This document shows positions 40,716 through 46,638 of a stretch of 64,000 nucleotides of DNA, one piece after another; the first letter of the stretch is position 1; each line of letters starts with the position of its first letter. Source of the stretch: Thermomicrobium sp. 4228-Ro (GTDB lineage: Bacteria > Chloroflexota > Chloroflexia > Thermomicrobiales > Thermomicrobiaceae); the NCBI RefSeq assembly GCF_026241205.1, contig NZ_JAPFQM010000001.1:1054001-1118000 (forward strand). Reading direction: 5' to 3'. The notes beneath the pieces are model-generated. The model was not told the origin of the DNA. It saw nothing but the letters and a program-made list of their open reading frames with translations, and did not search any database. A program made the position numbers and the translations under genes.

Positions 40716-40949
40716 ATGAACCAGTACACCGCCTCACGAGTCGACCAGCGTGTCGTCTTCTTTACCGCGGCGGTGGGCTTCGGTTCCGGTTCGGGTTGCG
40801 GTCACGGCTCCAGTAGTCCCTCCGGTTCCACTCGCAGCGGTTCCGGTCGCCACGGAGACGCTGTGACGATCCGTTCGCTTCCTGTCACCGGCAGACGTGA
40901 ACCGGAGGGGATCCATGGAACGGCAAATACGGCTCGCCCTCGATCTTGA
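40716..40949 (+). CDS. Ser/Gly-rich leader peptide upstream of serA
   Basis: A 77-residue ORF with a near-perfect AAGGAGG before ATG 40716. Residues 20-48 contain 10 Gly, 9 Ser and one Cys among 29, the end products of the serine pathway, encoded almost only by GGT/GGC and TCC/AGT/AGC codons. The remaining sequence resembles no protein family. The stop at 40947-40949 lies 32 bases inside serA, so ribosomes finishing the leader pass over the serA ribosome site. The length, position and composition suggest a regulatory leader, not a functional protein. Confidence 0.7.
   Translation: MNQYTASRVDQRVVFFTAAVGFGSGSGCGHGSSSPSGSTRSGSGRHGDAVTIRSLPVTGRREPEGIHGTANTARPRS
40818..40909 (+). promoter_or_regulatory. 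Possible anti-Shine-Dalgarno helix of a serA attenuator
   Basis: CCCTCCGGTTC (40818-40828, inside the leader Ser/Gly codons) pairs over 11 consecutive bases with GAACCGGAGGG (40899-40909), then two more pairs across a bulged C. The right arm contains the serA Shine-Dalgarno site (GGAGGGG, 40904-40910; ATG 40915). The stem would hide the site, and a ribosome stalled at leader codons 32-43 would cover the left arm. A competing stem (40801-40811 with 40854-40867) excludes it. Confidence 0.6.
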
Positions 40950-43128
40950 CGGTGTCCTGACGGAGCATCCGGCGCCCTTGGCCCAAGCGGCCAACCGGGC
41001 TCTCGGGATGCAACTTCCCGATCACGCATTCGTCGATTCCCACGGCTGCAACGTTCCCGAGGCTGTCCGCCTCTGGGTCTACGGCCCCGGCGGACCAGCG
41101 ACGTTACTCGATCCTGCCCCCAACGCACCGCAGCTCCTGCGCGACGTGCTGCGCGCACTCGGGAGCGATCGTGTGGTCATCATCACGGCGCGACCGGAGC
41201 GCTCGCGCGCGACGACGGAGGAGTGGCTGCAGCGACACGGCTTTCCCCAGTGCCGGATCGTCTTCACCGACGACAAGGTGGTGGCTGCCCGTGAACTCGG
41301 CGTGACGCATACCATCGAGGACAGCCTGCGGCACGCGACATGCTATGCCGAAGCCGGTATCACCTGTTTCCTCTTGACGAACGAGCCCGCACCACCCGGC
41401 GAGTCGCCCTTCGTTGTCCGCGTGCCTGATCTGACCGCTGCCGTCCAATCGGTTCTCCGTCTCGTTGGGGCACCGCTCCCGACTGCCAGCAGCGACGGGA
41501 TGCTGCCGCGTCGGCGGCGCATCGTGGTCAGCGACGTGATCGACCAGCGTGCCCTCGAGCGGCTGGCCGCTGAGGCCGAGGTGATTGAGGTCGATGGCCG
41601 CGACAAGGAAGCGCTCTACGCAGCACTGCGCGACGCGGACGCCTTGATCGTCCGCAGCGAGACGCAGGTCACCCGCGAACTCCTCTCCCACGCACCGCGT
41701 CTCCGCGTGGTCGCACGCGCCGGTACCGGCGTCGACAATATCGACCTCCAGGCAGCGACGGAAGCCGGAATCATGGTCCTCAACGCACCCGGTGCCAACG
41801 CGGTCTCAGCGGGTGAGCACACGATCGCCCTCATACTCGCCATCTCGCGCTGTCTCATCGAGGCGAACGCAACGACGCACGCCGGACGCTGGGAACGCAA
41901 GCGCTTCCGCCCATTCGACCTCAAAGGCAAGACCGTGGGCATCGTCGGGCTCGGTCGTGTGGGATCAGTCGTTGCCCAGCGGCTCCGCGCCTTCGAGGTC
42001 CGCTTGCTCGGCTACGACCCGTACATTACCCGCGAACGCTTCGCTCAGCTCGGTGTCGAACCGGTCGACTACGAGACGCTGCTCGAGCACAGCGATATCG
42101 TCACGTTCCACGTCCCCGCGACGCCAGAGACCCGCCACATGCTCGACGCCCGGGCGATCGCCCGGATGAAGCGCGGTGCGATCGTCATCAACTGCGCGCG
42201 CGGCGAGATCGTCGATGTGTACGCACTCGCGGAAGCGCTGAAGAGCGGGCAGATCGCGGCAGCCGGTGTCGACGTGTTCCCCGAAGAGCCAGCGTACGAG
42301 AGCCCGCTGTTCGGCCTCCCGAACGTGGTGCTCACGCCCCACATCGGCGGCTCGAGCCGGGAAGCCCTCCAGGCGGTCGGCGAGATTATCGCCACGACGA
42401 CGCTGGCTGCCCTCCGTGGCGAAGTCGTCCCGAACGCGGTCAACCTGCCAGCTGCTTCGCTCCATGCACCGGAACTGCTCCGCCTCACCCAAGTGGCTGA
42501 GGCAGCCGGGCACCTCATCGCCGTGCTCCAGCCATCCCGCCCGTCGCACTTCCTCGTGACTGTTCACGGCCAGGTCGCACCGGATATCGCCGAGCATGTG
42601 ACAGCAGTGGCGCTCGCAGCGGCACTCCGGCGCTGGACGGTACGACGCGTGACACCCGTCAATGGCCGGCTGGTCGCCCAGGAACTGCACCTCTTCGTCG
42701 ACGTGCGCTTCGATACCGGCGCCTCGTCGGTACCCGAATTCAACTTCGAGGTCGATGGCGACCCGCCGCATCACGTCATGGTGCGCTGGGATCACCGCCA
42801 TGCCGGCATCATGGAAGTCGACCGCTTCTCGCTCGAGCGACCGCTGGCCGGACACATGCTCATCACGCATCACCGCGACCGACCCGGCATCATCGGCCGC
42901 ATCGGGACGATCCTCGGCCGCTATGACGTGAACATCGCGGGCATGCAGGTCGGGCGGCGCGAGCGCGGCGGCGAAGCGATCATGGTGCTGAACGTCGACG
43001 ACCCGATTCCGGAAGCAGCCTTGAACGAGATCCTGCAGGTGCCGGACGTGTGGACAGCTTATGTTGTCTCGCTCCCGGATCCTGTCGATGCACCGGCACC
43101 CTTTGCACCGGCTCTCGCTGACGACTGA
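40915..43128 (+). CDS. serA: D-3-phosphoglycerate dehydrogenase with N-terminal HAD phosphatase-like domain
   Basis: First enzyme of serine synthesis, 737 residues, where the usual long form has about 525. Residues 1-190 are a HAD domain with all four motif groups: DLDGVLT (Asp10, Asp12), IITARP (Thr), a Lys in FTDDK and IEDS. Residues about 200-737 are a complete long-form SerA: ARAGTGVDNID, NAVSAGEHT, GIVGLGRVGSV (NAD), INCARGEIVD, LTPHIGGSS (His), an ASB-like domain, and a C-terminal ACT domain (ITHHRDRPGIIGRIGTILG). A GGAGGGG site precedes ATG 40915. Confidence 0.9.
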   Translation: MERQIRLALDLDGVLTEHPAPLAQAANRALGMQLPDHAFVDSHGCNVPEAVRLWVYGPGGPATLLDPAPNAPQLLRDVLRALGSDRVVIITARPERSRATTEEWLQRHGFPQCRIVFTDDKVVAARELGVTHTIEDSLRHATCYAEAGITCFLLTNEPAPPGESPFVVRVPDLTAAVQSVLRLVGAPLPTASSDGMLPRRRRIVVSDVIDQRALERLAAEAEVIEVDGRDKEALYAALRDADALIVRSETQVTRELLSHAPRLRVVARAGTGVDNIDLQAATEAGIMVLNAPGANAVSAGEHTIALILAISRCLIEANATTHAGRWERKRFRPFDLKGKTVGIVGLGRVGSVVAQRLRAFEVRLLGYDPYITRERFAQLGVEPVDYETLLEHSDIVTFHVPATPETRHMLDARAIARMKRGAIVINCARGEIVDVYALAEALKSGQIAAAGVDVFPEEPAYESPLFGLPNVVLTPHIGGSSREALQAVGEIIATTTLAALRGEVVPNAVNLPAASLHAPELLRLTQVAEAAGHLIAVLQPSRPSHFLVTVHGQVAPDIAEHVTAVALAAALRRWTVRRVTPVNGRLVAQELHLFVDVRFDTGASSVPEFNFEVDGDPPHHVMVRWDHRHAGIMEVDRFSLERPLAGHMLITHHRDRPGIIGRIGTILGRYDVNIAGMQVGRRERGGEAIMVLNVDDPIPEAALNEILQVPDVWTAYVVSLPDPVDAPAPFAPALADD

Positions 43129-43138
43129 ACGGGCAGGA

Positions 43139-44350
43139 TCACACCAAACGGCGATAGAGGTCGAGCGTGCGCTGGGCGACGGCACGCCAGCTGAAGTGCT
43201 GTTCGACCCGCGCACGTCCGTTCCGACCGAGTCGCTCGCGGAGCTCCGGATCGTCGACGATCCGCTGGATCGCGGCTGCCAGGTCGCGGGCGAAGGTGTC
43301 CGGATCGACCGGCTCGCCGCGTTCCGGATCGACCTCGACGTGCACCAGGATCCCGGTCTCGCCGTCGACGACCACTTCCGGTATCCCTCCGACGTCGGAG
43401 GCCACGACCGGGCACTCGCAGGCCATCGCCTCGAGATTGATGAGGCCGAACGGCTCGTAAATCGAGGGGCAGCAGAAGACAGTCGCGTGCGAGTAGAACT
43501 GGATGACGTCGGAGCGCGGCAGCATCTCCGGGATCCAGACGATACCGCGCCGTCGAGCACGGAGCTCAGCCACCCGCGTCTCGACCGCCTGCGCGAGTTC
43601 CGGGGTATCCGGCTGCCCAGCCAGGAGGACGACCTGGACGTCAGGGCGGAGGATCCGTACCGCATCGAGCAGGTGCACGATCCCCTTTTGGCGCGTGATC
43701 CGGCCGACGAAGAGGACGTACGGCCGGCCGAGGTCGACGCCAGCACGCTCGAGAGCGCTCGTCTCGCTCGTCTTGCGATAGAGGTCGATATCGATCCCGT
43801 TGTGAATGACGTGGACGCGCTCCGGCGGTATCGCGAAGAGGTGGAGGACATCCTGGCGCGTCGCGCCGGATACGGCGATCACGGCATCGGCCGCCTCGAT
43901 CGCTGTCCGCTCCATCCAGGAACTCAACCGGTAGGCGGTCCCGAGCTGCTCGGCCTTCCAGGGACGGAGCGGTTCGAGCGAGTGGACGGTCAAAACATAC
44001 GGCCGCTCCCAGAGAAGTCGGCCCCAGAGCGCTGCCAGGTCGGTGTACCAGGTGTGCGCGTGGATGACATCGGCATCGATCGGATCGCGTACCATCAGGA
44101 GGTTCCGCGACAAGGCATCGAGGGCCGACCAATGGCGGCGGTCTCCACCGCGCCGGATCTCTTCCCATCCCAGGTAGCCGCGGACGCGCAGGTTGGGCTG
44201 CTCGGTGTCCTGATCGCCGAAGCAGCGCACTTCGACCGAAACGGAGCGAGCGAGTTCGCGGGTGAGGTACTCGACATGCACGCCAGCACCGCCGTACACG
44301 TGCGGCGGGTATTCATTGGTCAGTACTAACACCTTCGAGACATCGCCCAT
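43139..44350 (-). CDS. GT4-family glycosyltransferase, GlgA/GlgM-like
   Basis: A 403-residue glycosyltransferase with two Rossmann-like halves: N-terminal VLVLTNEYPPHVYGGAGVHVEYL and HTWYTDLAALWGRLL, C-terminal YVLFVGRITRQKGIVHLL and the donor-binding PSIYEPFGLINLEAMACECPVVASDVGGIPEVV. It is like the actinobacterial GlgA/GlgM glycogen or maltose-1-phosphate synthases; the acceptor is uncertain. ATG 44350 (MGDVSKVLVL) is chosen over 44377. It lies 23 bases downstream of the metal ATPase gene and on the same strand. Confidence 0.82.
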   Translation of the reverse strand: MGDVSKVLVLTNEYPPHVYGGAGVHVEYLTRELARSVSVEVRCFGDQDTEQPNLRVRGYLGWEEIRRGGDRRHWSALDALSRNLLMVRDPIDADVIHAHTWYTDLAALWGRLLWERPYVLTVHSLEPLRPWKAEQLGTAYRLSSWMERTAIEAADAVIAVSGATRQDVLHLFAIPPERVHVIHNGIDIDLYRKTSETSALERAGVDLGRPYVLFVGRITRQKGIVHLLDAVRILRPDVQVVLLAGQPDTPELAQAVETRVAELRARRRGIVWIPEMLPRSDVIQFYSHATVFCCPSIYEPFGLINLEAMACECPVVASDVGGIPEVVVDGETGILVHVEVDPERGEPVDPDTFARDLAAAIQRIVDDPELRERLGRNGRARVEQHFSWRAVAQRTLDLYRRLV

Positions 44351-44373
44351 GTCGCCCCCGGCAGCCCATCGTA

Positions 44374-46638
44374 TCACGCCGGCGCGACGGCATCCCCGAT
44401 CCGCGAGGACGCTGCACTGGGACGGAAGGCAAGAAGCCGCAAGCCGTTGAGGACGACGACGATCGTGCTGCCCTCGTGACCGACCACCGCGAGCGGCAGC
44501 GGCACGCCGCGTACGAGAATACTGGTGACGAGAATCACGATCACAGCGAGAGCGATCGCCAGGTTCTGCACGATGATGCGCCGGGCAGCGCGCGACAGCT
44601 CGATCGAGTAGGGCAACTTGGTCAGATCGTCGCTCATCAGGACGACATCGGCCGTCTCCAGCGCCACGTCCGTTCCTGCCGCGCCCATCGCGACCCCCAC
44701 ATCGGCAGCCGCGAGCGCCGGCGCATCGTTGACGCCGTCACCCACCATCGCGACCCGGAAGCCCGCCGCCTGCAACTCGCGGACGACCGCGACTTTCTCT
44801 TCTGGCAAGAGATCGGCTCGCCACTCGTCCAGACCGACTTCCCGGGCGATGGCTCGCGCAGCACGCTCGTTGTCGCCAGTCAGCATGACGATCCGGCGGA
44901 CGCCGAGCGCGCGCAGGCGCTCGACCACCTCCCGCGCGACTGGTCGGACGGTATCCGCGATACCGAGCACTCCCAGAACGCGCCCGTCGACCGCGGCATA
45001 GATCGCCGTCCGGGCACGCTCGCGGAGTGCCTGGGCGACCTGTTGGAGATCCGCGGGGACGGCGACTCCATGATCGTGCAGTAGTGCCTCGTTCCCGATG
45101 AGGACGTCCAGACCGTCGAGTTCAGCCCGGACTCCTCGCCCCGGAATGGAGGTTAACGAGGTCACGCGATCGATCAGCGTGCGGTCGAACGCGTGCGCTG
45201 CTTCCGCGTGCGCAACGACCGCCAGCCCGAGAGGGTGTTCCGACCGATACTCGACCGGTGCGACGATGCGCAGCAATTCGATCGGGTCGACACCCGGTGT
45301 CGGTATCACATCGGTCACCCGCGGCTTGCCGACCGTCAGTGTCCCGGTCTTGTCGAAGACCACGGCATCGACCACACCGATCGTCTCGAGTTGCAACGCT
45401 CCCTTGAACAGCACGCCGCTCCGGGCCGCATTGGCGAGCGCCGAGAGGATCGAGGCCGGCGTCGAGATGACGAGTGCGCAGGGAGAGGCAGCGACGAGGA
45501 GCGTCATCGCCCGGTAGAAACTCGTCGCAGGGTCAGCGCCCAACGCGACCGGCAACCCGAACGCGAGCAGCGAAACCACGATCACACCTATCGCGTATTT
45601 CCCCTGGAACGCTTCGGCGAACCGCTGAGCGTGCGACTTCTGTTCTCGCGCTTCTTCGACGATCCGAATGATGCGCGCCAGGGTGCTCTCATCGACCGGC
45701 CGATCGACGCGGATTCGGAGCAGGCCGGTCGTATTGAGTGTCCCGCTGAAGACCTGATCCCCCGGTCGCTTGTGCACCGGCAGCGACTCACCGGTGATCG
45801 CCGACTGGTCGACACTGGAATCTCCCGCGACGACCGTGCCGTCGATCGGGATACGTTCGCCTGGCCGAACGATGACTTCGTCACCGGGCACGAGTTCCTC
45901 GACCGGGAGGACGACTTCGTTATCGTCGCGGATGGCGAGTGCGGTATCCGGTCGCAGCGCGATCAGCGAACGGATGGCCCGATGCGTCCGGCCGAGCGCG
46001 TAGTGTTCGAGCGCGTTCCCGAGAGAGAAGAGAAATAGCAGGATGCCGCCTTCCGGCCAGGCACCCAGGACAGCGGCACCGGCTGCTGCCAGGATCATCA
46101 GGAGATCGATATCGACGGTCTTTTGGAGAAGCGCTACGACTGCGCGGTAGCTGGCGTACGCTCCGCCGGCGAGGTACGAAGCCAGATAGAGGGCGAGCGG
46201 GAGCCAACCACCGAATCCAGCCCGCTCGGTAGACCAGGCCGAGAGCAGGAAGACACCGGTCGCAGCAGTCGTGAGGAGGAGTCCGTGCTGCTGCCACCAG
46301 AGGACCCGTTCCTCGCGGCTCCATCCTTCGGGTCGTCGAACGGGGACGACGAGCGTGCGCAGCTGCTCACCGCCAGCTAGACCGTTCCCGACGACGAGCG
46401 GGTCACTCGTGCTGGAACAGCGTGGACAGCTTCCGCCATGTCCAGCGCAATGATCGGCGAGACGTGCTGCGACGGCACGGGCGCGAGCATGAACCCGGTC
46501 TGCAGCGGCATCGTGCCGGTAGCGCACGACCAGCTGGTGCTGGTCAGGGTAGTAGGTCACTCCGACGATTTCGCCCTCGCTGGTGAGCTCCTCCAGGAGC
46601 GTTTCGCATTCGCTGCGTGTCGTCGCGGACAGTACCAT
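44374..46638 (-). CDS. P1B-type heavy-metal-transporting ATPase
   Basis: A 754-residue metal efflux pump. The N-terminus holds a short domain with a His/Cys-rich segment ([16 protein letters not shown]) instead of a classic CxxC metal-binding domain. Then come membrane spans, TGES, the ion-binding [10 protein letters not shown], the phosphorylation site [13 protein letters not shown] in [28 protein letters not shown], and HEGST in the last span, a pattern of Zn/Cd/Pb pumps. A Fur/Zur-like palindrome lies 24 bases upstream of the ATG. Confidence 0.9.

Follow-up and report, generated by a model that had tools for sequence, protein, structure and literature searches.

Why should a phosphatase domain of the HAD superfamily be joined to SerA, the enzyme of the first step of serine synthesis, and which reaction, if any, would it contribute? 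The question arises from one open reading frame in a 64,000-nucleotide stretch of the Thermomicrobium sp. 4228-Ro genome (hereafter the window), for which an initial annotation had suggested that steps one and three of the pathway may be united in one protein, with the caveat that the added domain resembles 5'-nucleotidases.

A HAD domain is fused in frame to a complete long-form SerA

The reading frame and its parts are as follows.

40915..43128, + strand: HAD-SerA fusion ORF of 737 aa, uninterrupted from the ATG at 40915 to the stop ending at 43128
40904..40910, + strand: Shine-Dalgarno-like GGAGGGG, read in the sequence just 5' of the ATG at 40915
40915..41469, + strand: HAD phosphatase domain (residues 1-185), NT5C-like with a small C1 cap by profile; Pfam NT5C slightly under cut-off, AlphaFold2 pLDDT 95.4, HAD fold matches
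40942..40962, + strand: motif I, DLDGVLT, with nucleophile D10 and acid/base D12, both invariant in 40 sequences
41029..41109, + strand: cap signature (residues 39-65), with invariant F39, D41, S42, W54-V55-Y56, G60-P61-A62 and L65
41185..41196, + strand: motif II region, TARP (T91; ITARP), with T91, A92 and R93 invariant and P94 nearly so
41275..41277, + strand: motif III lysine K121 (DDK), invariant in 40 sequences
41317..41325, + strand: motif IV, E135-D136-S137 (IEDS), metal binding, invariant in 40 sequences
41470..41517, + strand: variable linker of 16 residues (186-201), marked by length and sequence variation, low pLDDT and dN/dS of 0.36-0.52
41518..43074, + strand: complete long-form SerA (residues 202-720), TIGR01327 at 518 bits, with R429, E458 and H476 invariant
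42853..43044, + strand: C-terminal ACT domain of SerA (residues 647-710), PF01842 at E 3.5e-14

The arrangement originally read from this frame, a HAD domain with all of its catalytic motifs joined in frame to a complete long-form SerA, is borne out, and the motifs lie where they had been placed; the HAD domain is likewise intact, but its size is corrected from some 190 residues ending at 41515 to about 185, with positions 41470-41517 forming the linker. Motifs I-IV (DxD, S/T, K and an acidic pair) sit on a Rossmann-like core in a confident structural model, which places the domain in the HAD superfamily. By HAD chemistry, an aspartyl-phosphate would form on the nucleophile D10, D12 would serve as acid/base, and Mg would be coordinated by D10, E135/D136 and neighbouring residues. 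The SerA part exceeds the TIGR01327 cut-off of 454 bits over profile positions 1-525, the full length of the model, and contains the catalytic arginine, glutamate and histidine of long-form SerA, while its diverged intervening region matches PF19304 at E 0.038 only. Like the long-form SerA of Mycobacterium tuberculosis (1ygy, E 7e-97), it matches over its full length; unlike that enzyme, the window protein has an extra N-terminal HAD domain and the diverged intervening region. An AlphaFold2 model of the full-length protein consists of two modules and a linker, with pLDDT below 50 at residues 190-198, and its pTM of 0.44 leaves the relative orientation of the HAD and SerA modules unreadable.

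Directly downstream, in the opposite orientation, lie genes for a glycosyltransferase (43139-44377, - strand) and a P-type ATPase (44374-46638, - strand). Apparently the same pair follows the fusion at two further loci (L085 and L087), and at three others (L089, L091 and L094) the ATPase-like frame alone was recognised after it.

The fusion appears to be a trait of the order Thermomicrobiales

The initial annotation had proposed that the same domain order be sought in related genomes, and there it was found: the HAD domain was matched in 48 of 61 Thermomicrobiales genomes, with full-length matches in the same domain order in 45, each within a stop-free open frame of 489-951 codons. The three additional genomes yielded HAD fragments only, with contig ends confirmed for two of them (G043 and G046). 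Because the fusion recurs in independent assemblies, a chance or assembly join is ruled out. Short-looking SerA genes examined outside family f4, discussed below, were all located at contig ends, and two seemingly unfused SerA copies (in G043 and in G044) were, like the shortened frame of G046, rejected as artefacts of such ends. The fusion is thus seen in almost every Thermomicrobiales genome with a fully assembled SerA. One genome of the order, G054, contains a second, unfused SerA beside its fusion (C319:509-2077, L058), whose catalytic part shares 44% identity with that of the window SerA; this second copy may represent contamination (estimated at 5%) or a true paralogue.

A scan of about 85,000 species, which relied on two short patterns that diverged relatives would escape, returned 40 fusion loci, whose titles include Thermomicrobium, Sphaerobacter, Thermalbibacter, Thermomicrobiales, Chloroflexia and Chloroflexi. 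Across 400 Chloroflexota genomes, every strong match (E 1e-76 or better) was a Thermomicrobiales fusion, and the other seven matches were weak HADs (E 2e-13 or worse), six of them in frames of 233-289 codons; the seventh, in a 961-codon frame, reads as a stand-alone HAD. Within the reach of our searches, strong matches are thus confined to Thermomicrobiales, and the fusion appears to characterise this order.

Profile comparisons place the HAD domain nearest to NT5C-like nucleotidases

Against the NT5C profile (PF06941), the window's HAD domain scores 22.2 bits relative to a gathering cut-off of 24.8, and the profile picks up 10 of 18 relatives with E values of 0.01 or lower, down to 6.9e-7. 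Comparison by hhalign with two stand-alone Chloroflexota NT5C-type proteins, the first itself NT5C at E 3e-27 and the second above the NT5C cut-off, gave probabilities of 97.6 and 98.5, respectively, with alignments spanning cap and core, and homology to NT5C members therefore extends over both. By contrast, hhalign against the SerB of one Chloroflexota genome, represented by a single sequence, returned a probability of 0.1 and no relationship to the catalytic domain or cap, and an NCBIfam search with the HAD domain alone found no match even at E 1, the SerB model TIGR00338 included. These two results rule out that the domain is a relative of SerB within the superfamily. When the cap is compared with both candidate groups, as had been advised at the outset, the likeness is to the nucleotidases and not to SerB, and the early caveat about 5'-nucleotidases was well placed, the closest relatives being NT5C-like HADs, cap included. 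On these profile data, the domain is probably nearest to the NT5C-like (deoxy)nucleotidases with a small cap.

The predicted fold, for its part, appears to leave the substrate undiscriminated, with many C1-cap HAD families tied at Z 13-15, that is, within about two Z units. The MtlD phosphatase domain is among them at Z 13, and SerB appears in the Foldseek list only, at ranks 22, 34 and 43.

These affinities raise the possibility that the domain is an NT5C-like nucleotidase or general phosphatase engaged in house-cleaning, damage control or regulation, for example the tuning of SerA to nucleotide levels, and that it contributes no pathway step. NT5C-like proteins are its closest relatives by profile in cap and core, and the deoxyribonucleotidase-like 3bwv stands second by Z among the fold matches (Z 14.4). 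The fused domain shares with the 5'(3')-deoxyribonucleotidase-like HADs of PF06941 their core and a small C1 cap about as long as theirs, but differs from them in its own invariant cap signature, in a window sequence that stays under the family cut-off and in its fusion to SerA; moreover, if it were an ordinary nucleotidase, its coupling to the sole SerA throughout the order would go unexplained. We consider a nucleotidase or general phosphatase role somewhat unlikely. What the domain has in common with SerB (TIGR00338) is the chemistry of the HAD superfamily and the pathway proposed for it, but not detectable profile similarity.

The HAD domain is under strong purifying selection

In an alignment of 40 sequences, the HAD motif residues and the cap signature are invariant, as are R429, E458 and H476 of SerA in 37 sequences, and the linker differs in length and sequence between genomes. 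Comparisons within the genus put dN/dS at 0.039-0.049 in the HAD domain, at 0.016-0.046 in SerA and at 0.36-0.52 in the linker; these ratios are rough, as the synonymous distances approach or exceed saturation. The HAD domain is thus under strong purifying selection. HAD and SerA distances over 34 fusions are tightly correlated (Mantel r 0.90; none of 2000 permutations as high), a codivergence consistent with one old fusion that was inherited vertically. Fused domains are sometimes kept for structural reasons, and the HAD module could in principle be a non-catalytic relic or an oligomerisation device; given that no catalytic or metal-binding residue varies across the 40 sequences and that dN/dS is about 0.04, we regard this as highly improbable.

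Neither well-known phosphoserine phosphatase family was found in Thermomicrobium

If the fused domain acts in serine synthesis, the other enzymes of the pathway bear on its role. In the window genome, the fusion is the sole TIGR01327-grade SerA, and the next 2-hydroxyacid dehydrogenase scores far below it. No SerB above cut-off was found in any of the 61 genomes of the order. The SerB matches listed there were rejected as weak and sub-cut-off, mostly to the C-terminal half of the model, and many lie within long open frames such as those of P-type ATPases. Separately, in the window genome an in-frame TAG lies within a P-type ATPase-like frame (G000:C1:1357972-1358376, L053), which is perhaps a pseudogene. 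SerB is, however, above cut-off in only 2 of 251 Chloroflexota genomes, and because it is rare across the whole phylum its absence from the order is weak evidence that is not specific to the fusion. The initial annotation had named, as the observation that would speak against a serine role, a normal serB in the same genome together with strong nucleotidase likeness of the cap: the likeness is there, to a moderate degree, and the serB is not, although the rarity of SerB in the phylum takes much of the force out of that second point.

The second well-known family of phosphoserine phosphatases comprises histidine phosphatases (PF00300). Searches with PF00300 gave no match in the window genome (E 1e-3) or in six other Thermomicrobium genomes (E 1e-6), four of which are 90-99% complete and two partial (62% and 54%). 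With no SerB above cut-off and no PF00300 match, both well-known phosphoserine phosphatase families are unfound in Thermomicrobium, and the lack of PF00300 is the more telling of the two absences. In genus g3, PF00300 is absent from three of four genomes and partially matched in the fourth; it is present in most other genomes of the order, many of them fusion-bearing, and in nearly all control genomes. Without a PF00300 match, the identity of the phosphoglycerate mutase in Thermomicrobium also comes into question. Stand-alone class IA HADs of the window genome match models of phosphoglycolate phosphatase, beta-phosphoglucomutase and nucleotidase below their cut-offs, and one of these HADs could be the phosphoserine phosphatase instead.

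Canonical SerC was found only in genomes with unfused SerA

Canonical SerC (TIGR01364 above cut-off) was detected in 2 of 31 genomes, G023 and G027, and not in the other 29. Both belong to family f4, and both combine this SerC with an unfused SerA (L059 and L060). Identity of that SerA to the fusion form is 52-53% across the catalytic portion and 30% over the C-terminal portion, where fusions share 50-97% among themselves. This divergence indicates that fused and unfused forms are different SerA lineages, such that the contrast between them counts as one evolutionary event, and, together with the canonical SerC, it suggests that the serine pathway was replaced within the order.

A candidate for the transamination step in the window genome is a BhcA/AGXT-type aminotransferase of family PF00266, encoded at C1:1986650-1987753. 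With a threshold of E 1e-20, matches to this BhcA/AGXT-like enzyme came from 57 of the 61 genomes; G028 and G030, which both bear the fusion, gave none. The top-scoring models are those of glyoxylate or pyruvate aminotransferases. This aminotransferase lies near the fusion at none of the 40 named loci; for 12 of these, the neighbours listed include no recognised serine gene. AGXT-like PF00266 enzymes are known to serve as phosphoserine aminotransferases, as in SerC3 and the Synechocystis enzyme, and non-orthologous replacements of SerC and SerB are common in bacteria, with several described for SerB (PMC9026213).

The same data accommodate a different order of reactions, in which the HAD domain would dephosphorylate 3-phosphohydroxypyruvate and the BhcA/AGXT-like aminotransferase would then convert hydroxypyruvate directly to serine. 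The fusion would in that case join two consecutive steps, and a dedicated SerC and SerB would both be dispensable. This scheme accounts for the canonical SerC missing from the 29 non-f4 genomes and draws on the 57 of 61 genomes with an aminotransferase best modelled on glyoxylate or pyruvate substrates; it also accounts for why a phosphatase is joined to SerA, since consecutive steps are the usual logic of fusions, with MtlD as the nearest parallel. Against it, AGXT-like enzymes of PF00266 also act on the phosphoserine route (PMC9026213), and G028 and G030 bear the fusion without the aminotransferase match. We regard action on 3-phosphohydroxypyruvate as unlikely, though as a near competitor of the phosphoserine reading.

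A proposed function in serine synthesis

We propose that the fusion is a bifunctional serine-synthesis protein in which the NT5C-like HAD domain supplies the phosphatase step, most likely the conversion of phosphoserine to serine, and assign this reading a probability of roughly 0.5. The SerA module would oxidise 3-phosphoglycerate to 3-phosphohydroxypyruvate, with regulation via its C-terminal ACT region; phosphoserine would be made by an aminotransferase encoded elsewhere, putatively the PF00266 enzyme described above; and the HAD module, on its flexible linker, would act as a Mg-dependent phosphomonoesterase that releases serine. As our best reading, the HAD domain is a non-orthologous SerB replacement, presumed to be catalytically active on phosphoserine, to profit from tethering and to be served by the candidate aminotransferase. 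The phosphoserine role is favoured by the order-wide fusion, the invariant motifs, the low dN/dS, the codivergence of the two parts and the status of the fusion as sole SerA, and also by the presence of canonical SerC in the genomes with unfused SerA and its absence from the 29 others. It is weakened by nearest characterised relatives that are (deoxy)nucleotidases, by the other stand-alone HADs, by PF00300 in many fusion genomes and by the lack of a recognised serine gene beside the fusion. The original suggestion that steps one and three meet in one protein is partly supported: it gains from the fusion being the only TIGR01327-grade SerA, from the lack of SerB in the order and of histidine phosphatases in Thermomicrobium, and loses from a HAD domain that is not SerB-like (0.1 versus 97.6-98.5) and from the rarity of SerB in the phylum.

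Parallels exist for parts of this arrangement. MtlD (PDB 7ocn/7ocs) likewise has an N-terminal HAD phosphatase fused to a dehydrogenase, with linked reactions on one chain, but its dehydrogenase and pathway are unrelated to those of the SerA fusion; this HAD-dehydrogenase fusion can link successive reactions (PMC6291793). The oomycete SerA-SerC fusion Ps142688 also unites serine-pathway enzymes, but it is eukaryotic, joins steps one and two and contains no HAD domain (PMC2705460). Curated models exist for each part of the window protein separately. Whereas the oomycete fusion and unrelated SerB replacements are already known, the HAD-SerA fusion is undescribed in the literature searched, a search outside of which most subscription journals lay.

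That genomes lack an assignable phosphoserine phosphatase is an acknowledged problem: among surveyed gut genomes, 450 encode SerA and SerC without any known SerB (PMC9026213), and the phosphoserine phosphatase of Desulfovibrio vulgaris is likewise a gap (PMC5764234). With its phosphatase physically attached to SerA, the fusion hints at a function more directly than is usual, and makes the gap testable across a whole bacterial order. In Thermomicrobiales, a mostly heat-loving order of Chloroflexota, the fused HAD domain may supply the phosphatase step where the usual enzyme is unfound, and at about even odds we see in it a new phosphatase family, unrelated to SerB, with an NT5C-type HAD fold and a permanent link to SerA, that defines serine synthesis in this order. 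In a stronger form of this proposal, the family may act on 3-phosphohydroxypyruvate and open a serine route that bypasses phosphoserine; were that so, these bacteria would possess a variant of textbook serine synthesis without phosphoserine.
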